From NCBI GenBank assembly GCA_021647705.1, contig JAKIUF010000041.1:1-41395 (forward strand): a stretch of 41,395 bases of DNA, given 5' to 3'. Under the pieces are notes generated by a model that was not told the origin of the DNA, searched no databases, and was given only the letters and a program-made list of their open reading frames with translations. A program made the position numbers and the translations under genes. Source of the stretch: Gammaproteobacteria bacterium (GTDB lineage Bacteria > Pseudomonadota > Gammaproteobacteria > SZUA-152). The number at the start of each line of letters is the position of its first letter. The stretch's first letter is position 1. Shown here in pieces: positions 9,953 to 36,536 of this stretch.

Positions 9953-9974
9953 CGAGGGCGGCAGTCAGGAAACG

Positions 9975-10427
9975 CTATTGCAGACCCCAGTTACCCACAT
10001 CTGCGTTGGCATCGTCTCCACCCGGCTGACCATCAGCCCCCAGCGAAAAAACATCAATAGTGCCCTGTACACCGGGTGAGAGATATTGATAATCACTCCC
10101 CCAAGGGTCTTTAGGCAGGCGATCCATGTACTGTTTCCAGTTCCGGGGCTCAGGTGTACCACCGGGCTTGCTGATCAGCGCCTGCAAACCCTGGTCGGTA
10201 TTGGGATAAACAAAATTATCGAGTTTGTAAAGCTTCAGCGCACTTTCCAGAGCACGAATATCCGCCTGGGCCTTAGTGGTGCGTGCTGCATCAGGGCGAT
10301 CCATCACGCGCGGTACAACAATGGCTGCCAGAATCCCGAGAATGACCACCACCACCATGACTTCGATAAGGGTAAACCCGGATTGTCGCCCCGGCATAAA
10401 TTTATAGGTTTTCACGTTTGTCTCCAT
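9975..10427 (-). CDS. gspG: Type II secretion major pseudopilin GspG
   Basis: The main pseudopilus subunit, about 150 residues, and first gene of the operon. The leader ends GRQSG, then FTLIEVMVVVVILGILAAIVVPRVMDRPD, the canonical major-pseudopilin helix. The C-terminus (LGADGQPGGDDANADVGNW) contains the conserved calcium-binding loop needed for stability. The ATG at 10427 gives METNVKTYK; a GTG four codons later (10415) has GGAG 6 bases upstream and may be the real start. It is transcribed divergently from the rhombosortase gene across an 80-base gap that must hold both promoters. Confidence 0.95.
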   Translation of the reverse strand: METNVKTYKFMPGRQSGFTLIEVMVVVVILGILAAIVVPRVMDRPDAARTTKAQADIRALESALKLYKLDNFVYPNTDQGLQALISKPGGTPEPRNWKQYMDRLPKDPWGSDYQYLSPGVQGTIDVFSLGADGQPGGDDANADVGNWGLQ

Positions 10428-10508
10428 TCTTTACACTAACCTTTATATGATGATTTCCAATGAGACGAATACTAACACCCGTGCGCGATCTTGTGCGGCT
10501 GAAGCCGC

Positions 10509-13900: not shown

Positions 13901-15135
13901 TTTCCCGTCACCCTTTCTGGCAACGGCTTGGTTTTATCCCACTTACTGTAAATCGGCATCAACAGGAAAAAGGCAAAATATAAAACACTGAAAATACGCG
14001 AAAATAAGGTTGCCAGCGGTGTCGCTGCCACCGTGCCCAAATAAGCCAGACCAACAAAACTCACAACAAATACGCTTAACGCCAATTTAAACCAGGTACC
14101 ACGATAACGAATGGACCTGACCGGGCTGCGATCCAGCCAGGGCAGTAAAAACAACACCACCATGGATGCCCCCATAGCCACTACACCCAGAAACTTATCG
14201 GGTACCGCACGCAAAATGGCGTAAAAGGGAGTGAAATACCATAAAGGTGCAATATGTTCCGGCGTTTTAAGCGGGTCTGCTGGCACAAAATTATCCTTTT
14301 CCAAAAACCAGCCCCCCATTTCCGGGGCATAAAAAATCACCGCAGAAAAAATGATTAGAAACACCACAACACCAATCATGTCCTTAACGGTGTAATAGGG
14401 ATGAAAGGGAATGCCATCCAGTGGAACGCCATTTTCATCTTTCTTCTTTTTGATTTCGATGCCATCCGGATTGTTCGAGCCCACCGAATGCAAAGCGATC
14501 ATGTGAAACAACACCAGGCCAATCAACAGCAATGGAAAAGCAATCACATGGAATGCAAAAAAACGATTGAGTGTGGCATCAGCTACCACAAAGTCACCTC
14601 GAATCCATAGCGCCAGCTCATCACCAATATAAGGAATCGCACCAAACAAGGAGATAATCACCTGTGCCCCCCAGAACGACATCTGCCCCCAGGGCAATAA
14701 ATAGCCCATAAACGCCTCGGCCATCAGCACCACAAAAATCAGCATGCCAAACACCCATAGCAATTCACGCGGTTTACGGTAAGAACCGTAAAGCAGGGCA
14801 CGAAACATATGCAGATAAATCACGATAAAGAAAAACGATGCACCAGTAGAATGCATGTAGCGAATCAACCAACCCCAATTCACATCACGCATAATATATT
14901 CCACTGACGCGAAAGCAGTATCCGCAGTGGGCTTGTAATTCATGGTGAGAAATATGCCTGTGAGCAATTGAATCACCAGCACCAAAAAAGCCAGCGAACC
15001 AAAGAAGTACCAGAAATTTAGGTTTTTAGGTGCATAATATTTAACCAGATGATCCTGCCAAAATGCGGTCACCGGAAATCGTTCATCGGCCCACTCTCGT
15101 AAATCACCCAGGCTACGCGATATTTTATCAAACAT
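13897..15135 (-). CDS. petB: Cytochrome b of the bc1 complex
   Basis: A 412-residue integral membrane core of quinol:cytochrome c reductase with two b haems. Haem ligands are the His pairs in RYMHSTGASFFFIVIYLHMF (14 apart) and FHVIAFPLLLIGLVLFH (15 apart, the beta/gamma-proteobacterial spacing). The quinol-oxidation loop reads HIAPLWYFTPFYAILRA, with PLWY in place of the mitochondrial PEWY, as in other gammaproteobacteria. It is one unsplit polypeptide with eight helices, unlike the b6/subunit IV pair. The start overlaps the petA stop by one base (TAATG). Confidence 0.97.
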   Translation of the reverse strand: MFDKISRSLGDLREWADERFPVTAFWQDHLVKYYAPKNLNFWYFFGSLAFLVLVIQLLTGIFLTMNYKPTADTAFASVEYIMRDVNWGWLIRYMHSTGASFFFIVIYLHMFRALLYGSYRKPRELLWVFGMLIFVVLMAEAFMGYLLPWGQMSFWGAQVIISLFGAIPYIGDELALWIRGDFVVADATLNRFFAFHVIAFPLLLIGLVLFHMIALHSVGSNNPDGIEIKKKKDENGVPLDGIPFHPYYTVKDMIGVVVFLIIFSAVIFYAPEMGGWFLEKDNFVPADPLKTPEHIAPLWYFTPFYAILRAVPDKFLGVVAMGASMVVLFLLPWLDRSPVRSIRYRGTWFKLALSVFVVSFVGLAYLGTVAATPLATLFSRIFSVLYFAFFLLMPIYSKWDKTKPLPERVTGK

Positions 15136-15731
15136 TAAATGACCTCCGAATCAACACCCACCAACAGACGGGTCGCTGACACATAGTGGTGAGGTGGTAT
15201 AACGAGATTCGAGGGGGCTGGCATACCGGCGTAGACACGCCCGGCAAGATCATAAGTAGAGCCATGGCAGGGACAGAAAAAACCACCCTTCCATTCCGGC
15301 CCAAGATCCGGTGGAGCAAATTCGGGACGGTAGGTCGGCGAGCACCCCAGATGGGTACAAATACCGATCATTACCATATATTCAGGATTAATGGAGCGCT
15401 GTGGGTTCTTGGTATAAACAGGTTGCTGGGCAAGCTCGTCCGAATTAGGGTCGCGCAGAAATTTGTCCAGCTCCGGCAACGTCTTCAGCATTTGCTCATT
15501 TCGCCGCAAGACCCAGACCGGCTTACCACGCCATTCCACGGTCATCACCTGCCCGGGTTCCAGTTTGCTGATATCCACATCGATAGGCGCACCCGCCGCT
15601 TTCGCCTTTTCGCTGGGATCCATTGACAGCACAAAAGGTGTGGCTACATAAACTGCACCTACACCACCCATGGCAGCCGTTGCCGCCAACAACATGCGTC
15701 GTCGGCCATGATCAATTTCATCCATGCTCAC
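15135..15731 (-). CDS. petA: Rieske iron-sulfur subunit of the bc1 complex
   Basis: A 198-residue protein carrying the high-potential [2Fe-2S] cluster. The two ligand boxes are CTHLGC and CPCHGS (roughly residues 125-160), each with one Cys and one His ligand plus the disulfide Cys. The N-terminus has an arginine-rich Tat-type motif (GRRRMLLAATAAMGGVGAVYVATPF) that remains as membrane anchor. A GTG at 15731 has AAGGGG 7 bases upstream and is taken as start; the ATG two codons on is the alternative. It is first gene of petABC; the 380 bases upstream, after the ACIII terminator, should hold its own promoter. Confidence 0.96.
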   Translation of the reverse strand: MSMDEIDHGRRRMLLAATAAMGGVGAVYVATPFVLSMDPSEKAKAAGAPIDVDISKLEPGQVMTVEWRGKPVWVLRRNEQMLKTLPELDKFLRDPNSDELAQQPVYTKNPQRSINPEYMVMIGICTHLGCSPTYRPEFAPPDLGPEWKGGFFCPCHGSTYDLAGRVYAGMPAPSNLVIPPHHYVSATRLLVGVDSEVI

Positions 15732-16110
15732 ATAATTCCCCTTAATTACAAGTGCTGCTATTGAACCGAGAATCCTCAGTTGACTGCGCGCTTCAGAGGA
15801 TAATTAGCGGACATGCCAAAATTAACTTCAGGTCAGGCATTTCACCACGTCGGTACACCTTCCCACTACGAGTCAAATTGGACGCTATAGGGTATTAACA
15901 AAGACAAATAATTCGCGAATAAAAACATCCATTAACCGAGGAGCATAGCAGAGAATGAGAGCACGACAATATTGTTTATCTTAATATAATGATAAGCTGA
16001 TTTTTTATAGCGTAAAAAACAGAGAACCACACAATAACAAGCTAGACACTCGAGCAAACCCTGATTATTGACGCGCATAAAACAGGTAACAAGCAATACT
16101 TGCAGGCACA
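15732..16110 (-). promoter_or_regulatory. Intergenic region ahead of petABC
   Basis: No gene is apparent. The region is bounded by the ACIII terminator on one side and the petA ribosome site on the other, so a petABC promoter is expected here. I did not find a confident -35/-10 pair. Open frames on either strand lack ribosome sites and family features. Confidence 0.35.
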
Positions 16111-16135
16111 AAAAAGGGCTCCGAAGAGCCCTTTT
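16111..16135 (-). terminator. Intrinsic terminator of the ACIII operon
   Basis: On the minus strand the transcript would fold GGGCTC-UUCG-GAGCCC, a perfect 6-bp stem with the extra-stable UUCG tetraloop, preceded by AAAA and followed by a T6 run. It lies 43 bases after the actF stop and separates the alternative complex III operon from petABC. Confidence 0.92.
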
Positions 16136-16178
16136 CCACATTTGCTGCATGCAGGTTATTACAACTGCCAGCATTCCA

Positions 16179-17213
16179 CTATGCGCGTACCAGACCATAC
16201 TTGGTCATTGCCTTACGCACTGAAAACCAGCCAACAGCGGCTATCAGCAAAGTCACCACAATATCGAAAATTGATGTCATGGGGATATGGTAAAACTCTG
16301 GGGACACCGAACCGGAAACCCAAGTGTAACGTTCTATCCAGGTTCCCAACAGGATACTGATAGCAACAAATATAATCACTGTGGGGTTGTGACGATTGGG
16401 TGTCCACACCGCGAAAGTGAGGAAGGGCACAACAAACTTCAGCACCAGGAAGGTCCACCACAGCGGTGCCAGATCATAAAGCATCATGTCATTAAAACGA
16501 TCCATTTCTTCCGGTAAACGCCCATACCACATAATCAGATATTGCGTGAAGTAGAAATAGGTCCACAAAATCGTGAAGGCCAACATCATTTGCGCCAAAT
16601 AATTAAACACAAAAGGCTTGTACGGTTTGTTCACCTTGCCGGAACGATGCAGCATGATTAACACAATCGCCAGGAAGGCCAAAAAGAAGTGAAACATACT
16701 GACGAACTGGTAAATACCGTAACTGGCACTATGCCAGTTTACCACCATGGTCATTTCAAAATCCCAGGCAATCATGGTGCCGTACAACACATACACACCC
16801 GGAATAACCAGAGCAATATTCCGGAAAGTACGATGTACCTTAGGGTCATCACTCACATCTGTCAGATGCTGGTATTTAATAAACAGACAGAAAAAAGCGG
16901 CCACCACCAGGAAACCCAGGATCTGGCGCGTCACCAGAAAGGGGTAATTCAACCAGGCACTGAGATGCACATCTTCATCATCCGCGAGAGACAACCACGG
17001 GAAAGTACTTTCACCACTGTAAAGCAACAGCAGTAGTAACACACCAGCCAGTGGAAACAATGCCGCTGTGGAAACCGCAAAATATCGCACCTGAAAACGC
17101 CATTTACCATTCGCCAAGTGCAGAATCGACGCGAACGTCACACCTGCCAGCGCCAGATACAATACGATGAGGAAATTTGTGGTCAACACCGACCAGCTGC
17201 CAAAATTTTCCAT
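16179..17213 (-). CDS. actF: Alternative complex III subunit ActF (NrfD-like membrane protein)
   Basis: A 344-residue polytopic membrane protein of the NrfD/PsrC superfamily, with about ten helices. In alternative complex III, ActF pairs with ActC as a second quinol-site-like or proton-path subunit. Recognisable stretches are TFASILHLANGKWRFQVRYFAVSTAALFPLAG near the N-terminus, WHSASYGIYQFVSMFHFFLAFLAIVLI and IMWYGRLPEEMDRF. It is the last gene of the operon, 66 bases after actE, with AAGGG upstream of its ATG and a strong terminator downstream. It lacks the N-terminal extension of ActC. Confidence 0.9.
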   Translation of the reverse strand: MENFGSWSVLTTNFLIVLYLALAGVTFASILHLANGKWRFQVRYFAVSTAALFPLAGVLLLLLLYSGESTFPWLSLADDEDVHLSAWLNYPFLVTRQILGFLVVAAFFCLFIKYQHLTDVSDDPKVHRTFRNIALVIPGVYVLYGTMIAWDFEMTMVVNWHSASYGIYQFVSMFHFFLAFLAIVLIMLHRSGKVNKPYKPFVFNYLAQMMLAFTILWTYFYFTQYLIMWYGRLPEEMDRFNDMMLYDLAPLWWTFLVLKFVVPFLTFAVWTPNRHNPTVIIFVAISILLGTWIERYTWVSGSVSPEFYHIPMTSIFDIVVTLLIAAVGWFSVRKAMTKYGLVRA

Positions 17214-17279
17214 TTAACCCTTGCCCCTTTTATCTATTCTTGTCGAGCGCAGCAAAATATTGCTCGCCTTACCGTTGCT

Positions 17280-17831
17280 CTATTTTGCCGCAACCTGGGA
17301 TTCGTTCACCAAGCCATTTTTAAGGTAGTTCACCACATGCCAACGCTCTTCGACAGTCAGGTCATTCGAACCACCCTGCTCTCCCACCACGCCGTAAGCA
17401 GGCATTACATAACTACCAAACGTAATCGTGCCCCATAGCCAACCTTCTGTCATTGATTGCTGAACGTAATCGTCAGTCAGATCAATAGCACCAATTTTGC
17501 TGGCCACAGGTGACTCTGCTTTGCCCGTCAATCCATGGCAAGCTGCACAATAAATACGATAGAGAGTGCGGCCTTCTTTCAATGATGCTGCATTGGCCAC
17601 AACCGGGTTAACCAGGTCTTTGGACTCTTCCCGGTTCGCTACCTTGGTAGGAATGCCCATCACCGGAACTGAACGTGCAGGAAAAGGCGTCATCACGCCT
17701 TCCTGTGGTTTGATGCTGGGCTGATTCATCATATCCTGTGACCATGGCCAAGCCAGCGCCGCAGAAGGAACTGCCAATGCCGTTAACAATACCGCAATGC
17801 GTTTCATCGAATGGTTCGTTGCACACTTCAT
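17280..17831 (-). CDS. actE: Alternative complex III subunit ActE (monohaem cytochrome c)
   Basis: A 183-residue periplasmic class I cytochrome c. A signal peptide (hydrophobic core IAVLLTALAVPSAALA) precedes a haem motif CAACH in YRIYCAACHGLTGKAES; the probable Met ligand is in GSYVMPAYGV. Each haem-c subunit of ACIII helps hand electrons to an oxidase or soluble cytochrome. No lipobox Cys is seen, unlike some ActE homologues. The ATG at 17831 overlaps the actD TGA; the next ATG, eight codons in, would give a cleaner signal peptide but has no ribosome site. Confidence 0.9.
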   Translation of the reverse strand: MKCATNHSMKRIAVLLTALAVPSAALAWPWSQDMMNQPSIKPQEGVMTPFPARSVPVMGIPTKVANREESKDLVNPVVANAASLKEGRTLYRIYCAACHGLTGKAESPVASKIGAIDLTDDYVQQSMTEGWLWGTITFGSYVMPAYGVVGEQGGSNDLTVEERWHVVNYLKNGLVNESQVAAK

Positions 17832-18355
17832 CGAATCGCCTCTTCTCGAATTTCCAATACCTTGTGCTTTTCAAAAAGCTCCTTTACTGACTCACCAATG
17901 CTTTCATCGATTTCCACAATAATAGCCACTTGATCCAGGCTCACTTTTTCGCTGTACAACGAGCTACGTTTTTTCAATAGCCCCGATAAAAAGATGAAAG
18001 AGAAAAACGTCAGCCACACTGCAAAGAAAATCAGCATTTCGTACACCAACACAATGTTTGACGGCAACGCAATAACGGGTTTGCCGCCCTGTGGCTGCAC
18101 TAAAAAACTTGCCTGTGCGGCAGCCAAAAATATGAAGCCGAAAACCACGCCGAAAATAGCCCCAAACAAGGTGAATTTTTGAATATGCACTGGGCGTTCT
18201 CCCAACACTTCTTCAACTTCAGGGTGTTCAATGGGGGACGTCATAGTGACATCATCCACCGTCAAGCCTGGAACCTCATTACGACGAATATCAGCAATGG
18301 CATCATGAGCTTCCTCAAAATCACCAAACAGGCCCATCATTCTTTTTTTGCTCAT
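17828..18355 (-). CDS. actD: Alternative complex III subunit ActD (DUF3341 family)
   Basis: A 175-residue membrane subunit of ACIII. The N-terminal domain is cytoplasmic (MMGLFGDFEEAHDAIADIRRNEVPGLTVDDVTMTSPIEHPEVEEVLG), followed by two helices (KFTLFGAIFGVVFGFIFLAAAQASF and IVLVYEMLIFFAVWLTFFSFIFLSGLL) and a C-terminal domain with VAIIVEIDESIGESVKELFEKHKVLEIREE. This layout is that of DUF3341/ActD. It abuts the actC stop with no spacer; its ribosome site lies in the G-rich end of actC. Confidence 0.92.
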   Translation of the reverse strand: MSKKRMMGLFGDFEEAHDAIADIRRNEVPGLTVDDVTMTSPIEHPEVEEVLGERPVHIQKFTLFGAIFGVVFGFIFLAAAQASFLVQPQGGKPVIALPSNIVLVYEMLIFFAVWLTFFSFIFLSGLLKKRSSLYSEKVSLDQVAIIVEIDESIGESVKELFEKHKVLEIREEAIR

Positions 18356-19768
18356 TTATGCACCCCCCCCACCAGTGGTTTGAGTCACTGGTTTTGCATG
18401 ATCGGTCATACGCGCCAGATCTTCTTCACCCGCAGACAGTTTACGATGAAAGACCATCTCCTTCACTTCATACATGGAGACTGACGGAAACACCTTCACA
18501 AATATCAGAAACAACATACCAAACCAGCCAAAGCTACCAAACACAATGGCCCATTCGATAATGCTGCCATACATGATGTCCCACTGGTGTGGCTCGTGTG
18601 ACATAGACAATGTCGGTGCCACAATCATCCAGCGCTCGAAAAACATCCCCAGATTAAGGAACAACGAGACCACAAACATGGTGGGCATATGCCGACGTAA
18701 TTTCCTGAAGGCCAGTGCAAACGGCAATACAGAACCACAGAAGAGCATGGTCCAGAATATCCAGGCATAAGCACCAGTTGCTTTAGCGATCAACAGTTCC
18801 TTGTTATAGACATCATGACCATACCAAACAGAGGCGAACTCAATAAGATTCAGGTAAGTCCATACCATCGCTATAGCAAAGGTCAGTTTGGCGGTCTTTT
18901 CCATAATCGGCAGAGTCATATAATCTTCAAAACGGAAGAAATAACGCAACAGAATAAACAGCGTAATAATAGCCGCACAGCCCGAATATAATGCACCTGC
19001 CACAAAATACGGGGGGAAAGAAGTAATGTGCCAGCCGGGCATGATTGACATGGCAAAATCAGCTGACACAATAGAATGCACCGATACCGCCAGCGGAATC
19101 AGGAAACAAGCCATCAACAAATAAATCTTGCGGAAGTGACGCCATTGACGGTCACTGCCTACCCAGCCCAGCGCCAGGATGCCATACAACTTTTTGCGCC
19201 AGCCGGTGGTGTTATCACGACAGATCGCCAAGTCAGGAATCATGCCCACAAACAGAAACAACATGGAGGCTGTAAGATAAGTCGTAATGGCGAACGCGTC
19301 CCATACCAACGGTGAACGGAAGTTTGGCCAGATGCCTCGGTCACTGACATAAGGAAGCACCCAGTACAGGTTCCAGACACGCCCCAAGTGAATCATCGGA
19401 AAGATACCGGCTGTCAACAATGAAAACGTTGTCATCGCCTCGGCAAACCGATATATCGGTTTACGCCAATCGGCATGAATCAAATGCAAAATTGCCGACA
19501 GTAATGTGCCGGAATGACTCATGCCAATCCAGAACACAAAAGCAGCGATGTACATATCCCACATATGGGGATTATTCAGATCTGCCGTACCCATGCCCAC
19601 CGTATACTGAATATATTCCGCCAACACTGCGCAGGCTACCATGGCAATACATACCGCAAGCGTTACCCAATAAGCGGGGCGCGGATTTTCCATGCTCTTC
19701 AACACGTCGGTGTTGATCTTTGCCCACGCAATCTGCTCGTTAATATCTTTTTCTGTGACCATCGTCAT
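18356..19768 (-). CDS. actC: Alternative complex III subunit ActC (NrfD-like, quinol-binding)
   Basis: A 470-residue polytopic NrfD/PsrC-type protein, about ten helices, which carries the proposed quinol oxidation site of ACIII next to the [3Fe-4S] cluster of ActB. The most conserved block is FVFWIGMSHSGTLLSAILHLIHADWRKPIYRFAEAMTTF followed by FPMIHLGRVW. The end of the gene contains an uninterrupted run of eight G (TTGGGGA at the C-terminus). GGTG lies 9 bases before the ATG; an ATG two codons in is also possible. It is 61 bases after actB2. Confidence 0.94.
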   Translation of the reverse strand: MTMVTEKDINEQIAWAKINTDVLKSMENPRPAYWVTLAVCIAMVACAVLAEYIQYTVGMGTADLNNPHMWDMYIAAFVFWIGMSHSGTLLSAILHLIHADWRKPIYRFAEAMTTFSLLTAGIFPMIHLGRVWNLYWVLPYVSDRGIWPNFRSPLVWDAFAITTYLTASMLFLFVGMIPDLAICRDNTTGWRKKLYGILALGWVGSDRQWRHFRKIYLLMACFLIPLAVSVHSIVSADFAMSIMPGWHITSFPPYFVAGALYSGCAAIITLFILLRYFFRFEDYMTLPIMEKTAKLTFAIAMVWTYLNLIEFASVWYGHDVYNKELLIAKATGAYAWIFWTMLFCGSVLPFALAFRKLRRHMPTMFVVSLFLNLGMFFERWMIVAPTLSMSHEPHQWDIMYGSIIEWAIVFGSFGWFGMLFLIFVKVFPSVSMYEVKEMVFHRKLSAGEEDLARMTDHAKPVTQTTGGGGA

Positions 19769-19829
19769 TGTTATATCACCTTAATCTTTTTGACGGCTCT
19801 GCTTAAAAAGTCTTTGCAAACCTTCCGAT

Positions 19830-20672
19830 CTAAATATCTTCACGAACCCGTTCGAGATACATCACCGATGGGTCAACATTGAGTTCTTCAAAGATTCGAT
19901 AACCACGCAAATCAGCATCCTTTTTGGCTAATTTGGTTTTTTGGTAAACACCGCGTTCCACCTGATGTTTCTTCCAGAGTTTGCTGACTACACTGCCCTC
20001 ATCCATCGTGTCACCAAACACAATGGCTGAAGTCGGACAGGCTTGCGCACAAGCGGGTACCACTTCACCATCCTGCACCGAACGATCTTCCATAAAGGCT
20101 TTATCTTTAACCGTACGAATTCGCTGCACACAAAAAGTACATTTCTCCATCACACCTTTGTCGCGCACAGAAATATCCGGATTGAGCTGCTGCTCCATCG
20201 GCTCTGGCCAGGATGATTCGTAATAGGAATAAAAATTGAAGTAACGCACACGGAAGGGGCAGTTATTGGAACAGTAACGCGAACCAATGCAACGGTTGTA
20301 TACCTGCGCATTAAGGCCATCCGGCGTATGGTAAGTCGCTGCTACCGGACAAACCGGCTCGCAAGTCGCTGCGCCACACTGCTGACACATCATCGGCAGG
20401 AAACTGGCTCCTTGCTCAGGATGCTCCAGCTCTTGCTGATCCCAGTAGCGCTCAATACGCATCCAGTGCATGGCCTGGCCTCTTTCAAACTTTTCTTTAC
20501 CGACCACGGCCAGATTGTTTTCGGCATAACAGGCTGTGGAGCAAGCATTGCAACCAATGCACAAATCCAGATTAATGGCCATGGCCCAACGATGTTCGTA
20601 ATCATGATGACCGCCCTCTTCAGCACCTTTGCGATAGTCTGACCAGTGGTTGAGAATATTATCCAATGACAT
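19830..20672 (-). CDS. actB: Alternative complex III iron-sulfur subunit ActB2
   Basis: A 280-residue ferredoxin-type subunit equal to the C-terminal domain of fused ActB. Cys clusters in order: CIGCNACSTAC, CQQCGAATCEPVC, CIGSRYCSNNC and CTFC with a later CAQACP. By analogy with characterised ACIII, they hold three [4Fe-4S] and one [3Fe-4S] cluster. Electrons from quinol at ActC pass through them toward the c haems. Here it is a separate gene two bases after actB1, with a strong GGAGG 12 bases before its ATG inside the end of actB1. There is no signal peptide, as expected if it is exported with the Tat-signal subunit. Confidence 0.92.
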   Translation of the reverse strand: MSLDNILNHWSDYRKGAEEGGHHDYEHRWAMAINLDLCIGCNACSTACYAENNLAVVGKEKFERGQAMHWMRIERYWDQQELEHPEQGASFLPMMCQQCGAATCEPVCPVAATYHTPDGLNAQVYNRCIGSRYCSNNCPFRVRYFNFYSYYESSWPEPMEQQLNPDISVRDKGVMEKCTFCVQRIRTVKDKAFMEDRSVQDGEVVPACAQACPTSAIVFGDTMDEGSVVSKLWKKHQVERGVYQKTKLAKKDADLRGYRIFEELNVDPSVMYLERVREDI

Positions 20673-20674
20673 AA

Positions 20675-22888
20675 TTAAGTGCCCTCCGTACGGCGAACCT
20701 GCTCAACTGGCACGGTCACCACCAACTTGCGTCCCACCTGACTGTCCCCAGCCCCCGTTCCCATGCGTACGATGGACAGCGAATCCGCTGGCCCCACACG
20801 CTTCACGGTCACGCGCGTACTGTACATAGCCAGCTCGCCGGTTTTACCGTCTGTAGTTGCGTCAAGAATTTGCAGGGGATTGACACCCAGTCCCTTGGCA
20901 TAACGCCCGTAGGCTTCATGCCCCTGACCCAGCGGTATCGCCACGGCATCCGCATGCATACCTTTAAGCAGCACTACACGCAATTTGACTGAGCCCTGTG
21001 CAGAACTCACTTCCACTAAATCCAAATTTCCAATACCCATTTTTGCGGCGGTGTCCGGATGTATTTCCACCCAGGAGTCCCATACCACTTTGCTGATCTG
21101 ATCCGGCGCTTCCTGCAACCAGGGTAGATTGGCATGGCGACCATCAAACAAACCCAGACGGGGTGATGGCAGCAGCGTTAACCCCGCATTGTTATCCTCT
21201 ACCGGCGCTGCAAACGAAACGACAGTGGATTGTAGAGTTTTCGTGCCTGCATCCACTTTGATAACGCCGGTCTGTAAGGCCATATTCCAAAATTCGTCGT
21301 TACTCTTCGCGGCATTCTTCACTGAAGTTGGCATGGCGGCAAAAGCATTGCGTAAATATGCGTAATAGTCCTCGAACTGACCATAGTCATCCTTTTTACG
21401 CTGTTTGAGCAGGGTCAACAGGATGTCACCTAGACCTTTGGTCTCGGCATTGAGTTTTTCCATCAAAGGCTGTTGCACATGAATTGCATTGGCTTCAGCT
21501 TGATCGACGGGCACCTGCGTACCCCAGTCTTCCAGATAAGAGTCCACCGGCAGCACCAGATCAGCCGCCATGGTGGTTTCATCCGGAAACTGTGAAATAG
21601 CAACTTTAAAACCAATGTTGGCCATTGCTTCGGTCAGTCCCAGACTTTTCGGAGCGCTGTATATCGGGTTGCTGCCATGGAAAATCACTGCGTCCAGTTT
21701 TTTTGCTTTAGCCGCTTCGGCAAAAGCCACCAGATCAGCCGTGCCGCCCTGTTTGGCCATAAGTTGCGGGAAAGGAAAATCACCCGCAGATTCGATAGTT
21801 TTGCCTACATTACCAAGAATATGGTTCAACATCATAATGGCGGCGGTGGCGGCATACCCTTGCGCCTGTCCTTCAACGCCTGCGCCCGCCAGCACCAGAC
21901 TTGGTGCGCGCTCACTCAACAGCTGGGTAACACGTTGAATACGGTCACCGGCCACACCGGTCATCTGTGCCACTTTGGTGATATCGTAAGTATCGATCAA
22001 TGTGCGAACATCAGCAGGAATGCCAGCATCGCTTATTTTGATTTTATTCAGTAGCAAATTCGCCATGCCCAACGCCAGCACAGCTTCTGTACCCGGCTTG
22101 ATCGCCAACCATAAATCAGCGCTGCCACCAGTAAGTGACATTTTGGATTCGATCTGTACCAGCAGGCCGCGTTCTTTATTGGTACGGAATTTGGCATATT
22201 GCCCGGCGTACTGTACGGGAGACTGGCTTGCACCCATAAAATCCGCACCGAAGGAAACAATCATCTTCGCTTTGTCCAGGCGCAAACGAGGATTGGCCTC
22301 ACCCAGCATATCCTGATTAACCGCACGGGAAACAGCATTGTTAACCACTTCATGTGCGTAGTGGTTTGTTGACCCCATGGTGTCGAGATGATTTGTCAGC
22401 AACACGGACTGATGACCACTGATAGTGCCTGTAAACCAAGCAAAACGGTCACCATTGACCGTGCCCAGCTTTTCTTCCAACACTCCCAGCGCTTTGTCCC
22501 AACTGATTGGCGTCAGACTACCGCCAGTGCGCATCATCGGTGTGTTAATGCGGTCAGGGTTATAATGCCCCTGCACACCGGCCTGCCCCATCATGCAGAG
22601 CTTGCCATTATTCATTGCTGCATCTGGGTTACCTTCCAGCTTCAGTACACGACCTTCGCGTACCCGACCGTGAATACCACAACCTGCCGCACACTGTGTA
22701 CAGGTTGAGGCATACCAGACACCCACTCCCGGAATGACATATTCTTCCGGCATAAGATAAGAAACCACTTCTTCCTTACCCTCTTCCAGAGTGACGGTTG
22801 TGGGCATATCACACCCTGTCAGTGCTACGCCTGCACCACTCCAACCCATCACTTTCAGGAAATTTCTACGGTTCATTTTTCCGCTCAT
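20675..22888 (-). CDS. actB: Alternative complex III large subunit ActB1 (molybdopterin-oxidoreductase-like)
   Basis: A 737-residue relative of molybdopterin oxidoreductases (complex iron-sulfur molybdoenzyme fold). In ACIII this subunit carries no molybdenum cofactor and has a structural role. A Tat motif (RRNFLK, residues 7-12) is followed by a hydrophobic stretch ending LTGC (Cys26), a likely lipobox that would anchor it in the membrane. Cys63, Cys66, Cys70 and Cys98 form a C-x2-C-x3-C-x27-C pattern typical of a [4Fe-4S] site in catalytic molybdoenzymes. Later blocks include VVSFGADFMGASQSPVQ and AVIFHGSNPIYSAPKSLG. It forms one transcript with actA upstream (61-base gap) and actB2 downstream (2-base gap). 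Confidence 0.93.
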   Translation of the reverse strand: MSGKMNRRNFLKVMGWSGAGVALTGCDMPTTVTLEEGKEEVVSYLMPEEYVIPGVGVWYASTCTQCAAGCGIHGRVREGRVLKLEGNPDAAMNNGKLCMMGQAGVQGHYNPDRINTPMMRTGGSLTPISWDKALGVLEEKLGTVNGDRFAWFTGTISGHQSVLLTNHLDTMGSTNHYAHEVVNNAVSRAVNQDMLGEANPRLRLDKAKMIVSFGADFMGASQSPVQYAGQYAKFRTNKERGLLVQIESKMSLTGGSADLWLAIKPGTEAVLALGMANLLLNKIKISDAGIPADVRTLIDTYDITKVAQMTGVAGDRIQRVTQLLSERAPSLVLAGAGVEGQAQGYAATAAIMMLNHILGNVGKTIESAGDFPFPQLMAKQGGTADLVAFAEAAKAKKLDAVIFHGSNPIYSAPKSLGLTEAMANIGFKVAISQFPDETTMAADLVLPVDSYLEDWGTQVPVDQAEANAIHVQQPLMEKLNAETKGLGDILLTLLKQRKKDDYGQFEDYYAYLRNAFAAMPTSVKNAAKSNDEFWNMALQTGVIKVDAGTKTLQSTVVSFAAPVEDNNAGLTLLPSPRLGLFDGRHANLPWLQEAPDQISKVVWDSWVEIHPDTAAKMGIGNLDLVEVSSAQGSVKLRVVLLKGMHADAVAIPLGQGHEAYGRYAKGLGVNPLQILDATTDGKTGELAMYSTRVTVKRVGPADSLSIVRMGTGAGDSQVGRKLVVTVPVEQVRRTEGT

Positions 22889-22949
22889 AATCGTTATTCC
22901 GCTCTATTGAACCCACTCAAATCTATATTTTAATCAGCGATTAAACTGA

Positions 22950-23618
22950 TTACTTATGACACTTCCAACAGTCGCCCGGCGCACCGAGGTCTTTGTTTGC
23001 AATATGACAGTTGATACAGAAACCCATATTTAACGGTTTCACCTTATTAGCCACTGTCATGTTTTCCACATCACCATGACAAAACGCGCATATTTCCTTG
23101 ATATCTTCCACTGGAAACTCACGGTCAAACGCCAGGGTTTTCAAATGCTTTTCATGGGTAAAATGCACAAAATCCGGTACATCATGGACTTTTTTCCAGA
23201 GAGGAGACTCTTTGTCTTCCCAGTATTTTGTCAGCTCTTTAATACGCGGTTTGTCAGTCGCAATTACTTTGTGACAACCCATGCATTTGCTGGTAGGCGG
23301 AATACCAGCCACCTTGCTGCGACGTGCATAGGTATGGCAATACATGCAGTTAATGTCATTGTCCTTGACATGAATGTCGTGTGGAAACTCGATTGGCTGG
23401 GGCACATCTTCCCCCGTATGTGTGCCACTCGGCGGTACCACATCGTACTTGACAGCCATTGCCATGGAGGACATTAGCAACATCACCAGGAACACCATCC
23501 CGGCAAGTCCAGTCCTGACAAAGCCTGCGCCCGGATTGATCAAACGGTTCTTCACTACCATTTTCTTCCTCGATACATTTTGTTGTTTATCAACTTTTGT
23601 TTTCATCAATGTTTCCAC
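22950..23618 (-). CDS. actA: Alternative complex III pentahaem cytochrome c ActA
   Basis: A 222-residue multihaem protein, first gene of the operon. Five CxxCH motifs are present: CMYCH, CMGCH, CAFCH, CINCH and CWKCH, the number typical of ActA. An N-terminal signal/anchor helix (FVRTGLAGMVFLVMLLMSSMAMA) keeps it at the periplasmic face. It receives electrons from ActB and hands them to ActE or a soluble carrier. Two closely spaced ATGs (METLMKTK) make the precise start uncertain by four codons. Confidence 0.94.
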   Translation of the reverse strand: METLMKTKVDKQQNVSRKKMVVKNRLINPGAGFVRTGLAGMVFLVMLLMSSMAMAVKYDVVPPSGTHTGEDVPQPIEFPHDIHVKDNDINCMYCHTYARRSKVAGIPPTSKCMGCHKVIATDKPRIKELTKYWEDKESPLWKKVHDVPDFVHFTHEKHLKTLAFDREFPVEDIKEICAFCHGDVENMTVANKVKPLNMGFCINCHIANKDLGAPGDCWKCHK

Positions 23619-29571: not shown

Positions 29572-30630
29572 TTAGTATTTTTTGCTCTGTATTTGGTGCA
29601 AGATTTTTGTATAATTTTCAATATTCCGATTGCTCAACAAATCATGTTTAAGCATTCCTGCTGTCAAGGAATATACAAAATATTGCATAAGCGTCAGATT
29701 TTTTAAAAATAGCGCCAGTTCGACTTTATCTCCATTCTTAAAGGTTTCATAAACTGCCATCGTCAGAACAAATAAAGTTTCTCCTTCTTTTTCACCACTG
29801 TGAATAATCCTGGTTGATTTGAAAGGCTGCTTCATGATTTGATACACATATTCTCTCTCTTTGGCAGAAAGATATTTTTCACTATTCATCCCGTTTAGAA
29901 TATGCACATATTCCCGTGCGGTTCCCTGCACAAACCAGCCGCTAAATAATTTCTGCTTTTCTATGGTTATATCTTTTTTTGATATGGACTTATTGATGCT
30001 TTTATTTTTTAGCCTGGAATGCATTTCATAACTCAACCTAATATATTCTGTTTTTCCCATACGCTCCAAATCTTGCATACTGTGGTCTCTCAATACCAAA
30101 AGACTGGAACCAAACGGGTACAGTTTTTCATGTTTAGCAAGGCCGAATTTATTGATGATATCGTTTATCTTATCAAAACCAAGCTTTTCAAATAAATATT
30201 CCGTATTTGCATTTGAGCTAAACCTCATCATCCCTCTAGCCACTTCTAAAAGCGGGACTGTTTCTTCCTTCACCAAACCACGGCTCTTTATTTTCTTTAA
30301 CCAGGATTGATGTGCCCCTCCATCGGTATTTTTTATAAAATATTTTTCCAAATCTGACAGGAATATACTTTCTTCCGGGTTTACATCATTGTTAGCGGCT
30401 TGCCTGGCGAACGCTATCGCCACTATTATTTTTACAGTGCTTGCCAGGGGCATAAGCTCATCAGCATTTTTTTTCAGTATAGTTTTTCCATTCCTGACCA
30501 GACATACAGAGCCATTTACTGCTTCACCTGCGATATAACGCATAATTTTTGATGGTGAATATTTTAACCAAAGAAATAACAAAACTACTGCAATAATTAG
30601 AACCCCCACCCCCACCAACCACAAAATCAT
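29572..30630 (-). CDS. Beta-lactamase-fold serine hydrolase, membrane anchored
   Basis: A 352-residue protein with one N-terminal helix (about residues 2-22) and a periplasmic domain of the beta-lactamase2/PBP-like type. The nucleophile motif is S-T-V-K (Ser64-Lys67) in MPLASTVKII; the second motif is S-S-N (138-140) in MMRFSSNANTEYLF; a likely third is HSG in RIIHSGEKEG, replacing KTG. These three are in the order expected for class A beta-lactamase relatives. The lack of an obvious Glu166-type loop and the anchor make a cell-wall or esterase role as likely as antibiotic hydrolysis. Codon use is much richer in A and T (many AAA, AAT, ATT) than the neighbours, suggesting transfer. Confidence 0.75.
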   Translation of the reverse strand: MILWLVGVGVLIIAVVLLFLWLKYSPSKIMRYIAGEAVNGSVCLVRNGKTILKKNADELMPLASTVKIIVAIAFARQAANNDVNPEESIFLSDLEKYFIKNTDGGAHQSWLKKIKSRGLVKEETVPLLEVARGMMRFSSNANTEYLFEKLGFDKINDIINKFGLAKHEKLYPFGSSLLVLRDHSMQDLERMGKTEYIRLSYEMHSRLKNKSINKSISKKDITIEKQKLFSGWFVQGTAREYVHILNGMNSEKYLSAKEREYVYQIMKQPFKSTRIIHSGEKEGETLFVLTMAVYETFKNGDKVELALFLKNLTLMQYFVYSLTAGMLKHDLLSNRNIENYTKILHQIQSKKY

Positions 30631-31198: not shown

Positions 31199-33832
31199 CT
31201 ACAGACTCAGGATAAAATCAGCCAAAGCTTCGATATTGACATCTGATACACGCGGCGAGTAGGGAGGCATTGTTGCATTACCCCAGTTGCCTCTTCCACC
31301 ATTTTTGATCTTATCAATCAATATGGCTTTTGCATTAGCCGTGCCTTTATATTCGTCAGCAATATCTCTCCATGAGGGACCGAGAAATGGATCATCAATA
31401 CCATGGCATGCCAAACAGCCACTTTCCCGCGCCAAATCCAGATCACCAACAACAGGCTCAGCGGCTACGACTACCGTCTTCACACGGTCGATATCATCTC
31501 CTAAACCCGTCGCAGTAACACGGACAGGGGTTGTGATCAGGCTACCACTCAGCAGTCCGACATCCACCAAAGGATCCACCGTAATGGTGCGGTTTTCACC
31601 GCTGCCCAGTGTACCCAATATCCAGAAAGCTTCTTGGGCATCCATACATGCTGCCCCACAACCTGTCGCATCTGGCTCGGCATCATGTGCAGCGTCAAAT
31701 TGGAGCCCAGGCGGTACGCGAAGCAGTACGCTAACGTCATTAACAGGCGCAGCGGATACGTTGCTGATACTGAATTCATAACGCAAACGCTCACCCGTCG
31801 CGACCGGGTCGGGAGTAGTGCTGATATCGAGCGTAAGGGGAAACGTTTTTTCGACAATGGTCAGCACCCGCTCAGCGCTGGCATCAAGGCTTGCTCCTCC
31901 ATCATGACGTAACTCTGTACGGATGGAGAGAATCTGGCCAGCGATAGCTGTTGCATTTACGGTGCCTTCGATGGTGCGCCGCAGAGCATGACCGACGGCG
32001 AGACTGCTTACATCCCAGACAATGTCGCCAGTAACAGCATCTTCGGTGCCACCATCGCTGACGCTATCCACACTGATCGCTGCGGGTAGGATGGTGCGCA
32101 ATTCCACGTTATCAAGCGCCGCGCTGTCAACATTGCCAACATCAACAATGAGGGTCAGGCTGTCGCCCGGCATGAGCGGATCCTCCGAAGCACTCATGGC
32201 CAGTTGTGATTTGGGGGTGTTATTCACCGCCACCGTCCTGGACACACTGATGATATCGCTAATACTGGAAGAGGTGACCCGTACAGATGCGCTGATCTGC
32301 TCATCTGCCAACACGCCGGGGAGAACCTGTGCATTGATGGTGATGCTACGACTTTCACCTTCAGCCAGCGAGCCCATTGCCCACACCGCTTCCTGGCCAT
32401 CAGTGCAGGTTATTCCGCAACCTTCTGCATTTGGCTCAGCATCATTTTCAGCATTAAACTGGAGTTCTGTCGGTAGCGTATACACTACGGAGACATCATT
32501 GACCGGCTGCGCTGATACATTACTCACCGTCATTGTGTAAAGCGCTCTTCCATCTGCGCTCACTGGCCCATTAATAGAGACTTCAAGCAAAAGCGATGGG
32601 GTGACGGTCAACGACAATGTGGTTTGAGTTTCACTCGCATTGTCGCGAACTGTCAGCTGCGCGGTAAAATCACCACTCGAAGCGTAAGTATGTTCCTGCG
32701 ATGCAATATTGGCGCAATCATCAATACTGTAATCGTCTGTCCCATCATTATTGATATCAAGTGCGCAGGTCAGTGAGTCACCCTCTGGGTCACTGACCTG
32801 CCAATAAAAGGTAGTCGCTACCGTCGAATAAGCCGGGTTTGGATCTACTGTGAACTGGCTGATAACCGGCGATGTCGATAACACCGTCAGCTCAATCGAT
32901 GTTTGCACCGAAGCGTTCGTGGCATCTTCAACAGTCAAACGAACCTGATAAACGCCTGCCTGCGTGTAGGTATGCGCCTGTGAAGTATTGCTGGCACAGT
33001 CGCTGATGGTGTAGTCATCCATGCCATCCGCATCGACATCCAATTTGCAGGTTAATGTGCCGCCATCGCCACCACTAACATCCCAACCAAAGATCGTGGA
33101 ACTGCCAGTTTTTGGGGTTTCGGGAGTTGCAGAAAAACTCTCGATTTTCGGTGGTAAAGGGGTGTTTGCTTCAGTGACCTTCACGCTCACATTCTGTTGT
33201 ACCGGCGCATTAACACCATCCACAACGGTCAGACGTACCTGATAATCCCCCGCCTGCGTATAAGTGTGTATTTGCGAGGTATTGTTGGCGCAATCGTCAA
33301 TGGTGTATTCGTTTGAGCCATCTGCGTCAACATCCAAACTGCAAGTCAATGTATCACTTTCTGCATCAGTAATATTCCAGCTGACGGTCACTGACATACC
33401 AACATTCACGCTGGCAGGGGTTACCGTCATATTATCGATAACCGGTGCAGCATTCAGTGTGGCATTAACAGTAATTGCAATTGTGTCGGTATCTGTCGCT
33501 CCGTCACTGTCTGTGGCTTTTAACGTAACGGTATGACTACCGACGGAAAGCGTGGAGAAGACATCTGTACCTGTGCCCAGTTGGCCATCAATCTGGGAGG
33601 ACCATATGAGGCTGGCTCCATTCAATGCGCCGTCTTCATCATCCACACCTCGACCGACGAAGAGAATATTACGGCTCCCCGAGTGAACGCTTCCATTCGT
33701 CGGGCTGCTGATAACCGCTGTAGGTGCTAAGTTGGCGGTGTCATCCTCATCGGGATCATTCTCTTCGCCACAGGCTCCCAGTAACAACGATAAAGAAATA
33801 ACAACACCCTGAATCCACTTCACTGAAGACAT
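31199..33832 (-). CDS. Multidomain lipoprotein: PKD and DUF11-type repeats with C-terminal cytochrome c
   Basis: An 877-residue predicted lipoprotein (lipobox LLGAC, Cys21). After an acidic linker come an Ig/PKD-like domain (about 35-125), three related PKD-type domains (about 127-415), three DUF11/CARDB-like beta domains (about 420-785) and a class I cytochrome c (about 800-877). The haem motif is CLACH (about residue 804) and the Met ligand is in ATMPPYSPR. Each of the three PKD domains has the pattern LTC-LD(V/I)(D/N)-DG-Y-I-DCA, i.e. a D-x-D-x-DG calcium-type loop bracketed by two Cys. The cytochrome part resembles small c551/c8-like domains. The likely role is a membrane-tethered electron carrier held on a long rod, outer-membrane or periplasmic; this is inferred. 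No operon partner: over 700 bases separate it from the ABC genes. Confidence 0.85.
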   Translation of the reverse strand: MSSVKWIQGVVISLSLLLGACGEENDPDEDDTANLAPTAVISSPTNGSVHSGSRNILFVGRGVDDEDGALNGASLIWSSQIDGQLGTGTDVFSTLSVGSHTVTLKATDSDGATDTDTIAITVNATLNAAPVIDNMTVTPASVNVGMSVTVSWNITDAESDTLTCSLDVDADGSNEYTIDDCANNTSQIHTYTQAGDYQVRLTVVDGVNAPVQQNVSVKVTEANTPLPPKIESFSATPETPKTGSSTIFGWDVSGGDGGTLTCKLDVDADGMDDYTISDCASNTSQAHTYTQAGVYQVRLTVEDATNASVQTSIELTVLSTSPVISQFTVDPNPAYSTVATTFYWQVSDPEGDSLTCALDINNDGTDDYSIDDCANIASQEHTYASSGDFTAQLTVRDNASETQTTLSLTVTPSLLLEVSINGPVSADGRALYTMTVSNVSAQPVNDVSVVYTLPTELQFNAENDAEPNAEGCGITCTDGQEAVWAMGSLAEGESRSITINAQVLPGVLADEQISASVRVTSSSISDIISVSRTVAVNNTPKSQLAMSASEDPLMPGDSLTLIVDVGNVDSAALDNVELRTILPAAISVDSVSDGGTEDAVTGDIVWDVSSLAVGHALRRTIEGTVNATAIAGQILSIRTELRHDGGASLDASAERVLTIVEKTFPLTLDISTTPDPVATGERLRYEFSISNVSAAPVNDVSVLLRVPPGLQFDAAHDAEPDATGCGAACMDAQEAFWILGTLGSGENRTITVDPLVDVGLLSGSLITTPVRVTATGLGDDIDRVKTVVVAAEPVVGDLDLARESGCLACHGIDDPFLGPSWRDIADEYKGTANAKAILIDKIKNGGRGNWGNATMPPYSPRVSDVNIEALADFILSL

Positions 33833-34225: not shown

Positions 34226-34421
34226 TGTGAATTAAGGGCTGAATCACCAATGTCATTAAGTTAAGCGTACTTGGTCAAATCTAGTGTTTGTAAACGCAGA
34301 GGTCGCAGAGACGCAGAGGCCACAGAGAAAAACACTAAAAACGCTGTGCCCTCTGCGTCTCTGCGAGCTCTGTGTTAAATACCCGGTAATTTAAAAAAGT
34401 ATTTTTAGCCCTTAATTCACA
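34226..34421 (+). mobile_element. MITE-like element family B, copy 3 (short form)
   Basis: A 196-base element with terminal repeats TGTGAATTAAGGGCT, inverted at the two ends, and TTAAA on both outer flanks as a possible target duplication. It keeps the CGCAGAG-rich long hairpin (about 34290-34375, pairing CGCAGAG-GCAGAGACGCAGAG with CTCTGCGTCTCTGCG) but lacks the GTCATTCC hairpin of the other two copies. It shares GTTAAATACCCGGT with copy 2. It lies between the ABC genes and the cytochrome lipoprotein. Confidence 0.72.
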
Positions 34422-34572: not shown

Positions 34573-35640
34573 TCATTTCCAGCGAAACAACACCGCACCC
34601 AGTAACAGAAAAACCGCACTCATCACCGAAAGCACCAGTAGTTGTGTACTTATTTCCACCAAGCTTGCTCCATCGATCATGATGCTTCGCGCCGCATCGA
34701 TGATATGAGTAAGCGGAAAAATCAGCGCTAAGTTTTGCATCAGCGGATTGGCACCTTCCAATGAAAACCACACCCCGGAGAGAAACATCATCGGCCAACT
34801 AACAAGATTAAGAATACCACCCGCCAGTTCTTCGCTACGAATACGTGCTGCCACCAACAGACCCATACTAATGAGACTGACTGCACCAAGAGAGAAAACC
34901 AGAAGTAGATTCCAATAAGAACCAAACATGGTGAAGTCGATAAACAGATCAGCCCCCACATAGACCATGATGGAAATAGCCATAATCAACCACAGACGCG
35001 AAACCACCTGCGCGGAGAGAAACTCAAAAGCACTGAGGGGTGTCGCCTGGAGGCGTCTGAGAACCCCGTTTTTACGATACCGCACGATGACATAACCAAC
35101 ACCGAACAAAGAACTGAACATCATGTTCATCGCCAATATTCCAGGAATAACCCAGTCCACATAACGAATTTCACGACCACTGACAGTTTGACGCTGATAT
35201 CCATCGGTCTCCACAGCGACAGGAGCCCCCCTCCTTCCATCAGCATCCACCATCACCGCACCATGCAACACCCGCTCCAGCATGTAGCCTTTGGGAGAAT
35301 CACTGTTAATCCAGTAGTGACCGCTATCAAGATCAAACAACATGTCCAGTTGATGGCGCTCCACCTTGATGATGGCCTGGTCCAGCCGGGTAATCGGGAT
35401 GAACTGAATGTAGCTGGTGCGAAAAAAAGCGTGTTCTTGTTTGGCGGTTACCAATTTCTGTAGTGGTGCCTCGGCATATACGCCAACTTTGTACTGGTCC
35501 AGCGGCTCTCCGGAAAAAGCAAAGGCAAAGCCGGCCACAATCAGTACTGGAAAAAGGATATTCCAGCCCAACGCCGAACGGTCGCGAATAAACTCCCGGT
35601 TGCGGGCAGCCAGTACTGTGAAAAAGCGACGCAGGTTCAT
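34573..35640 (-). CDS. ABC-2 type transporter permease
   Basis: A 355-residue inner-membrane permease of the ABC2_membrane_3 type. One N-terminal helix (SALGWNILFPVLIVAGFAFAF) is followed by a large extracytoplasmic domain (about 45-175) and five helices with the usual IPGILAMNMMFSSLFGVG, RYRKNGVLRRLQATPLS and FPLTHIIDAARSIMIDG blocks. Such exporters move drugs, lipids or polysaccharide; the substrate cannot be told. Its ATG overlaps the stop of the ATPase gene (ATGA), so the two are co-translated. It probably forms a dimer with two copies of the ATPase. Confidence 0.92.
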   Translation of the reverse strand: MNLRRFFTVLAARNREFIRDRSALGWNILFPVLIVAGFAFAFSGEPLDQYKVGVYAEAPLQKLVTAKQEHAFFRTSYIQFIPITRLDQAIIKVERHQLDMLFDLDSGHYWINSDSPKGYMLERVLHGAVMVDADGRRGAPVAVETDGYQRQTVSGREIRYVDWVIPGILAMNMMFSSLFGVGYVIVRYRKNGVLRRLQATPLSAFEFLSAQVVSRLWLIMAISIMVYVGADLFIDFTMFGSYWNLLLVFSLGAVSLISMGLLVAARIRSEELAGGILNLVSWPMMFLSGVWFSLEGANPLMQNLALIFPLTHIIDAARSIMIDGASLVEISTQLLVLSVMSAVFLLLGAVLFRWK

Positions 35641-36536
35641 GTACGCAACGCTGCGCCGGTAAGGGCTAAAAACAGGTCATCGAGGGTACGTGGACGAATC
35701 TGTAAACCCGCCAAAGAAACATCATGGGCGAGCAAAGTCCGCACTGCGGCATTGATGTCAGAGCTAAGGATTTCTACGATATCGCCTTGTACCGTCAAGT
35801 TCAGCGGCACGTTTTCAATCGGGCCAAGGATGTCCGAGCGTGGCAACTGTAACACCACCTCATCAAAATGCTCCGCCAGTAAAGCCTTGGGAGAGCCGTG
35901 GGCAATAATCCTGCCGTGATCCATGATGGCAATTTCATCACACAATTCATAAGCCTCTTCCATGTAATGGGTGGTCAGCAGTACCGTTTTACCTTGGGCC
36001 TTGATACGTTGCACCAATGCCCACAAATTACGCCGCGCTTGAGGATCAAGCCCCGTCGTCGGCTCATCGAGAAAAACCACCTGAGGATCATTGACCAGGG
36101 CCATAGCCAACAACAAGCGCTGGCGCTGGCCACCGGAAAGTTTGCGTGTATCGCGGTCAAGAAACTCACCCAACGCACAAATTTTGATCAACTCATCGCT
36201 ATCGATGGTACGGGAGTAGAGACGGCCGAACATCTCCAACGCCTCACGCACGGTAATAAAATCTTGTAATGCGGTGGACTGAAACATGATACCGGCATCG
36301 TTGCGGAATGCCTCGCGCGCAGCCCCGGCATTCACCCGCTGGCCACGGTAGTAAATTTCGCCACTACTGGGCTCAGTGATGCCTTCCAGCATTTCGATAG
36401 TGGTAGTTTTGCCCGCCCCATTGGGACCCAACAGGCCGAAGCAAGTGCCTTGTTGCAGTGCAAAGCTAACACCATCGACGGCGATAACAGCATCGAAGTG
36501 TTTGACCAGATTGGTAACCTGTAACAGTGCAGCCAT
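35637..36536 (-). CDS. ABC transporter ATP-binding protein
   Basis: A 299-residue ATPase of the DrrA/CcmA-like exporter class. Walker A GPNGAGKTTT, Q-loop in GIMFQSTALQD, signature LSGGQRQR, Walker B VVFLDEPTTGLD and the switch His in TTHYMEEAY are all intact. The C-terminal 80 residues (about 220-299) form the extra domain common in DrrA relatives, ending RPRTLDDLFLALTG. It is first gene of a two-gene operon with the permease. The 330-base gap to the divergent rhodanese gene should hold promoters for both directions. Confidence 0.94.
   Translation of the reverse strand: MAALLQVTNLVKHFDAVIAVDGVSFALQQGTCFGLLGPNGAGKTTTIEMLEGITEPSSGEIYYRGQRVNAGAAREAFRNDAGIMFQSTALQDFITVREALEMFGRLYSRTIDSDELIKICALGEFLDRDTRKLSGGQRQRLLLAMALVNDPQVVFLDEPTTGLDPQARRNLWALVQRIKAQGKTVLLTTHYMEEAYELCDEIAIMDHGRIIAHGSPKALLAEHFDEVVLQLPRSDILGPIENVPLNLTVQGDIVEILSSDINAAVRTLLAHDVSLAGLQIRPRTLDDLFLALTGAALRT

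Follow-up and report, generated by a model that had tools for sequence, protein, structure and literature searches.

A predicted lipoprotein rod of PKD and DUF11 modules with a c551-type cytochrome tip in a lineage of Gammaproteobacteria

Known long-range electron transfer in bacteria runs through packed chains of haems or through haems on floppy linkers. The described systems closest in principle to the protein reported here, rod A, are PgcA of Geobacter sulfurreducens and Laz, the lipid-modified azurin of Neisseria. In the passages that describe it, PgcA passes the outer membrane by export and relies on tethered diffusion; it resembles what we propose for rod A in its lipid-anchor signal peptide, its small separated monohaem domains and an exchange by tethered diffusion rather than through packed haems (PMC11520253). 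PgcA differs in its known surface location and in carrying three haems on flexible PT linkers, whereas the single haem of rod A would sit on folded PKD and DUF11 modules. Judged by motifs, rod A appears to share the lipid anchor of a PgcA-like class but not the several haem domains on PT linkers. Laz, as far as the published account goes, is likewise a small electron carrier of periplasmic type made into an envelope lipoprotein; once thought to be surface-exposed, it was found not to be exposed in gonococcus (PMC6277709). Being an azurin, it is a copper protein, unlike the haem-tipped rod A. Laz is not known to have a PKD/DUF11 rod.

Small cytochromes c on large exported proteins are also found in ThuA-GSDH-cytochrome enzymes and in the Cbp2D/TERTU proteins; in the parts of the reports that deal with them (PMC10916295, PMC12055684), these have catalytic or carbohydrate-binding domains, unlike rod A. 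Among the matches listed in the open-licence literature, there was no published PKD/DUF11 rod with a cytochrome tip (the DUF11 mentions in PMC9230146 are of DUF1127). Rod A is real, conserved and lineage-restricted. It varies the theme of a monohaem cytochrome on a lipid tether, in that the spacer is a rod of folded modules and that sister rods bear other tips. If true, an arrangement in which one haem sits on a folded spacer with exchangeable tips would add another geometry, the reach of which is defined and measurable.

Architecture of rod A

The window, by which we mean the whole analysed stretch of 41,395 nucleotides, belongs to a genome assembly (G000) of 4.44 Mb in 82 contigs that is 96% complete. 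Rod A is encoded there by a reading frame with a ggagg motif close upstream of the start codon (Table 1). An earlier note, made from the letters of the DNA, had described seven beta domains between a lipid anchor and a C-terminal haem, and this description held: the lipobox LLGAC is followed by four PKD modules, three DUF11 modules and a cytochrome domain. The domain-profile search proposed in that note returned PKD, DUF11 and cytochrome c, all above the curated Pfam cut-offs: PKD_4 (1.4e-18) and PKD (7.4e-16) in four stretches each, DUF11 (2.3e-17) in three stretches, and Cytochrom_C (4.7e-07) at residues 803-877. In the same Pfam search, neither a catalytic nor a carbohydrate-binding domain turned up in rod A, nor did a porin.

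Table 1. Positions of rod A and its modules in the window, and of related features at other loci (L numbers).
Feature	Position	Strand	Details	Basis
Rod A reading frame	31199-33832	-	877 aa, ATG start	
Lipoprotein signal peptide	33770..33832	-	Ends in lipobox LLGAC (Cys21, +2 Gly)	Lipobox motif
PKD module 1	33461..33727	-	Residues 36-124, no Cys pair	Pfam; boundaries by eye
PKD module 2	33167..33454	-	Residues 127-222, Cys164-Cys181 round DVDADG (33317-33334)	Pfam, alignment
PKD module 3	32876..33157	-	Residues 226-319, Cys262-Cys279 round DVDADG (33023-33040)	Pfam, alignment
PKD module 4	32597..32875	-	Residues 320-412, Cys356-Cys373 round DINNDG (32741-32758)	Pfam, alignment
DUF11 module 1	32204..32596	-	Residues 413-543, Cys472/Cys476	Pfam, alignment
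DUF11 module 2	31841..32203	-	Residues 544-664, no Cys	Pfam, alignment
DUF11 module 3	31448..31840	-	Residues 665-795, Cys725/Cys729	Pfam, alignment
c551/c552-type cytochrome domain	31202..31447	-	Residues 796-877; CLACH 31403-31417; candidate Met855 ligand 31268-31270	Pfam, PDB match, alignment
ABC-2 permease and ATPase pair	34573..36536	-	Upstream syntenic context, 740 bp from rod gene; not assigned to rod function	
Tip X, free or on rods	L009:1619-2224 (+), L058:5711-6373 (+), L011:8286-8816 (-), L141:492-1178 (-)			
Linker lipoprotein c551	L067:5041-5643 (-), L068:3373-3996 (-), L071:2568-3167 (+), L117:4491-5030 (-)			
PKD proteins with at least two CxxCH	L142:1498-3630 (-), L147:769-2598 (+), L145:3-1670 (+), L150:1507-3702 (-)			

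Rod A has 13 Cys residues: one in the lipobox, six in PKD2-4, four in the DUF11 modules and two in the haem motif CLACH. The three calcium-type loops that the note had placed inside Cys pairs are present in PKD2-4, where pairs with a spacing of 17 residues enclose DxDxDG or DxNxDG; two CxxxC pairs, in DUF11-1 and DUF11-3, had gone unmentioned. The ten rod Cys are kept in all 12 aligned rods, and the lipid Cys in all 11 rods with a complete N-terminus. The modules would be braced by disulfides and probably by calcium. In three pairs of rod orthologues, dN/dS was 0.16, 0.18 and 0.24 for the mature protein and 0.18, 0.13 and 0.05, respectively, for the cytochrome domain. By these ratios, the rod orthologues are under purifying selection.

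Mature rod A (residues 22-877) is strongly acidic, with a pI of 4.05 and a charge of about -83. In the AlphaFold2 model, whose confidence is too low for use as a structure (mean pLDDT 54.6, pTM 0.26, three input sequences), the secondary structure is almost wholly beta to residue 794 and helical past residue 798. Ig-like modules measure about 4 nm each, so seven of them would give rod A a length of about 28-32 nm. In lipoprotein sorting, Asp at position +2 is the inner-membrane signal, and Gly at +2 is not that signal; rod A is predicted to be lipidated and sorted to the outer membrane. The order of modules supports the layout claimed earlier, namely an anchor, a long rod free of cofactor motifs and one haem at the far end.

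The cytochrome tip and its relatives

In a phmmer comparison with PDB sequences, the tip of rod A matched c551/c552 chains (best 1dvv, 9.8e-17, residues 800-876), which by sequence places it in class I cytochrome c551/c552. It carries the single CxxCH of rod A and would bind haem via CLACH, with Met855, in the C-terminal part of the domain, as candidate distal ligand. In the alignment, CxxCH and the candidate Met are kept in all seven haem-tipped rods. Free-standing cytochromes c551/c552 (PDB 1dvv, 2exv, 1a56) are like the rod tip in sequence class, CxxCH and Met; in contrast to the acidic, rod-borne tip, they are soluble single-domain carriers.

The order was sampled with 24 genomes, which make up one family and six genera. 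Nineteen of them have two free-standing c551 genes each, and G001 and G003 have one each; in the search of all 24, none was found in G006, G018 or G020. The rod tip shares 58-67% identity with soluble c551 relatives encoded in the same genomes. In a tree of cytochrome domains (63 rows and 86 columns, 2 of 65 rows having been dropped), the rod tips formed one clade with a support of 100/97, many other forks being open and the bootstrap unsettled. A four-residue insertion seen in one c551 type is absent from the rod tips. The seven rows of rod tips have net charges between -4 and 0, while free-standing domains (49 rows, taken both within the order and beyond it) average +4.7, with a range of -2 to +8; the lysines preceding the GP motif are missing in 7/7 tips. 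The acidic tips, set against the positive soluble c551s, suggest a change of partner.

G012, G014, G016 and G018 also have a c551 domain that is preceded by a lipobox and about 70-90 residues of low-complexity linker (Table 1). Two of these lipoboxes were recognised by motif with Lys or Gly at +2, one has Asp at +2, and that of G018 was assigned by eye. Like rod A, these proteins (L067, L068, L071 and L117) have a lipobox, a spacer and a C-terminal c551 domain; unlike it, their spacer is of low complexity and their domain has the 4-residue insertion and a positive charge (mean +3.4 for 7 rows of linker c551 domains). Linker-type c551 lipoproteins are present in three other families as well (L069, L070, L072), and a further c551 relative in G014 (L118) is short and lipoprotein-like and lacks the long linker. 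No rod-cytochrome was found in the four linker-c551 genomes.

PKD modules and cytochromes are joined in other ways too. G018 encodes a 710-residue protein of three PKD modules and cytochrome domains, with partial relatives in G019, G021 and G059, the matches spanning both parts, and likewise in G016, G068 and G123, known from matches alone. The choice-of-anchor V PKD-cytochromes (P0005/L142 and kin) resemble rod A in combining PKD and cytochrome c in one exported protein of the same bacterial family, but no lipobox was found in them, they have two or more CxxCH, and their cytochrome is of CBB3-like type. L142 itself carries the choice-of-anchor V domain. A GGGA-hydrophobic-basic tail closes L142 and L147, two of the four PKD-cytochrome proteins examined. 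We take such a tail to resemble a surface-sorting signal. At the translation start of its frame, L145 contains FFNDTATTEIYTLALHDALPI, which is presumably translated sequencing-adapter sequence and so likely an assembly artefact.

Distribution of rods and their tips

The fusion of rod and cytochrome was found at 7 loci in 5 of the 24 genomes of the order (G000, G003, G004, G007 and G008; 73-96% complete), all five belonging to the genus of the window. It was present in at least 5 of 144 relatives, with at most six candidates scored per genome, and among 398 genomes of the phylum only in the window's own, a weaker test with two candidates scored per genome. Searches with rod A as query would miss fusions on unlike rods. 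The fusion had been called uncommon in the earlier note; this stands for the exact architecture, but PKD-cytochrome c fusions of other build occur in the same family and class.

Three rods are encoded in G000. Rods A and B (contig C7, 70% identical to A) are haem-tipped, and rod C (contig C8, 1085 aa, without CxxCH) carries an unrelated tip, X. C rods were found in five genomes. The signal peptide, PKD1-4 and DUF11-1 to -3 are common to C, A and B; C rods have one DUF11 module extra and end in tip X, of about 177 residues. The next annotated gene beside rod B (L010:6676-8055, minus strand) encodes a protein with an animal haem peroxidase domain (PF03098, 2.7e-17).

Tip X also occurs as a separate reading frame with a signal-like N-terminus (L009, L058, L141). 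It was found only in the genus of the window, in 7 of 144 relatives, G006 being counted on a 23-residue match. Tip X gave no Pfam or NCBIfam match and no convincing sequence match in the PDB; a model from the single sequence had a pLDDT of 32, and a possible threefold repeat is weak, its three pairwise scores being reached by 17, 35 and 159 of 2000 shuffles.

In the congener G002, genes for soluble X, for a 406-aa protein and for a 510-aa rod, built of three PKD modules and tip X, come after an ABC-2 pair. The ATPase of that pair is 94% and its permease 87% identical to those that precede the rod in the window, and two more upstream genes of the window match this stretch at 72% and 79%; the downstream genes tested had no match in it. 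No haem-tipped rod was found in G002, where one rod is broken off at a contig end. Near soluble X in L058 and L054 lies a 406-407-aa protein without clear family.

Module counts thus far are seven in A and B, eight in C and three in the G002 rod. L052, a locus in a relative, encodes a complete rod that ends in DUF11 and is tipless; L061, L062 and L063 likewise finish in DUF11, but are either split or truncated at the opposite end. Judged by sequence, the same rod design with haem tip, tip X or no tip makes up a modular rod family within one order. The family offers natural controls, like rods being available with haem, with tip X and tipless. A PadR-like regulator gene directly precedes the rod gene in L056 (7375-7716, minus strand; Pfam match), and PadR-like genes, their likeness judged by eye, lie before the rods in L052 (1502-1921, minus strand) and L054 (3861-4139, minus strand).

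Location, role and surroundings of the haem-tipped rod

Co-occurrence with outer-membrane conduits, which the earlier note had suggested looking for, was not borne out: a profile search for the MtrB/PioB porin (PF11854) found it in 0/5 rod-cytochrome genomes. It is present in 6 of the 24 genomes of the order, namely the four linker-c551 genomes (4/4), G001 and, as a fragment, G011. The pattern of linker with MtrB versus rod without it tracks genera and thus reflects few independent events. With no MtrB-type conduit in any of the five, no electron route across the outer membrane is evident in the rod-cytochrome genomes. By its sequence features, rod A would belong neither to MtrCAB-type conduits, as there is no MtrB porin and only one CxxCH, nor to Cyc2, as its haem is C-terminal and the chain contains no porin. 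As for secretion, GspD was found above cut-off in G004, G007 and G008 but not in G000 and G003, and the Slam match was borderline in G000 and G007.

We tentatively propose, at slightly less than an even chance, that rod A is an outer-membrane lipoprotein arm. Its N-terminal lipid would anchor it in the outer membrane, its seven beta modules would serve as a cofactor-free spacer of roughly 30 nm, and its C-terminal c551-derived cytochrome, facing the surface, would accept or donate single electrons by tethered contact on meeting a partner. As the rod has no cofactor motif, no conduction along it is expected, and the haem would act only on partners that the tip touches. Facing outward, the rod would reach well past the outer membrane; if it points inward, its length could roughly bridge an E. 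coli-like envelope. We lean slightly towards the surface-facing orientation.

Surface display is supported by the presence, in the same genome, of a like rod with another tip and by the occurrence of both tips as free exported proteins, as expected of a display arm, and rods of 3, 7 or 8 modules fit a surface arm better than a periplasmic ruler. The export of PgcA, which is likewise lipid-anchored with monohaem domains, speaks for such an arm too (PMC11520253). The charge switch of the tip counts slightly toward an outward-facing arm, as do the T2SS pseudopilins GspG-K and rhombosortase in the window and the sorting-like tails of PKD-cytochromes of other build (L142, L147). Against a surface arm stand the lack of MtrB, of GspD above cut-off in G000 and G003 and of more than a borderline Slam match in G000 and G007, together with the usual role of the c551 class as periplasmic carriers and the finding that Laz is not exposed in gonococcus.

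Rod A might instead hang inward from the outer membrane and hold its c551 at bc1, ACIII and oxidases, limiting diffusion; we give this a substantial minority chance. The soluble c551s of the same genomes, at 58-67% identity to the tip, and the bc1 and ACIII genes within the window are consistent with it, and the linker c551s of four genomes, all with MtrB, would suit shuttling between the membranes. As far as the sources go, Laz provides a precedent (PMC6277709), and an extended seven-module rod comes close to the inter-membrane distance of 30-32 nm given for E. coli (PMC8824477). However, the positive charge of the soluble c551s is lost in the tip, which makes the same partners, met in the same way, unlikely, and rods of 3, 7 or 8 modules share no single fixed span. 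Exported surface proteins typically show such an acidic build of PKD and DUF11 modules rich in disulfides, which speaks against an inward-hanging tether.

It is improbable that rod A is a structural or adhesive surface rod whose haem tip senses or scavenges (e.g. peroxide or NO) and carries no electrons. The existence of tipless and X-tipped rods does argue that a rod is useful in itself; the tip, however, is closest to electron-carrier c551s and has a candidate Met ligand in 7/7 haem-tipped rods, and a haem that is six-coordinate through His and Met binds ligands poorly. For multidomain cytochromes of Cellvibrio and Teredinibacter, a role as extracellular electron donors to secreted enzymes that oxidise polysaccharides has been proposed; it is highly improbable that rod A has such a role. 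In its favour, c551-like domains terminate large exported ThuA + GSDH + cytochrome enzymes in other genomes (L136, L137), and the X183 domain of Cbp2D passed electrons to an LPMO, slowly (PMC10916295). Against it, TtX183 domains gave the LPMO none (PMC10916295), the Pfam search of rod A showed neither a catalytic nor a carbohydrate-binding domain, and no polysaccharide-degrading enzyme is among the annotated genes of the window.

Extending the outward-facing arm to the whole family, we consider it rather unlikely, though conceivable, that the lineage mounts its own soluble proteins (c551, tip X) on PKD/DUF11 rods as plug-in surface arms, and that the haem rods, outside the cell and with no haem wire, bridge tens of nanometres to deliver electrons one by one to neighbouring cells, to minerals or to soluble carriers. 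Extracellular or cell-to-cell electron transfer by rod A itself, the role suggested in the earlier note, is possible.

A common periplasmic enzyme subunit, the outcome named in the earlier note as contradicting its reading, did not turn up in the searches made, and this candidate was rejected since rod A has no catalytic domain and no operon-like adjoining enzyme gene. An operon with ACIII or bc1 was rejected too, these genes lying about 8 to 18 kb off, behind sugar-metabolism and other genes. Alternative complex III genes adjoin those of bc1 (Rieske, cytochrome b, c1) at 13151-23618 of the window; the set comprises an ActA-like pentahaem protein, ActB with Mo-like and FeS parts as two reading frames, an NrfD-type ActC, ActD and a monohaem ActE candidate. 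As a partner, cd1 nitrite reductase was rejected for the five rod-cytochrome genomes, which at 73-96% completeness gave partial propeller matches of at most 42 bits; matches with E < 1e-100 were found in G005, G017, G019, G020, G021 and G022.

Elsewhere in the window, 7332-11102 encodes the T2SS pseudopilins GspG, H, I, J and K and a divergent rhombosortase (TIGR03902, 155.6 bits). The next annotated gene downstream of rod A is 568 bp away. A gene with a Beta-lactamase2 domain (29572-30630, minus strand) adjoins rod A and is absent at the comparable loci L044 and L045. A promoter scan found 6, against 6.6 expected from shuffles, and a terminator scan found 6, against 3.6 expected. Between the ABC pair and the rod A gene lies an imperfect inverted repeat with GCAGAG-type units (34268-34401); its 58-nt arms are 74% complementary.
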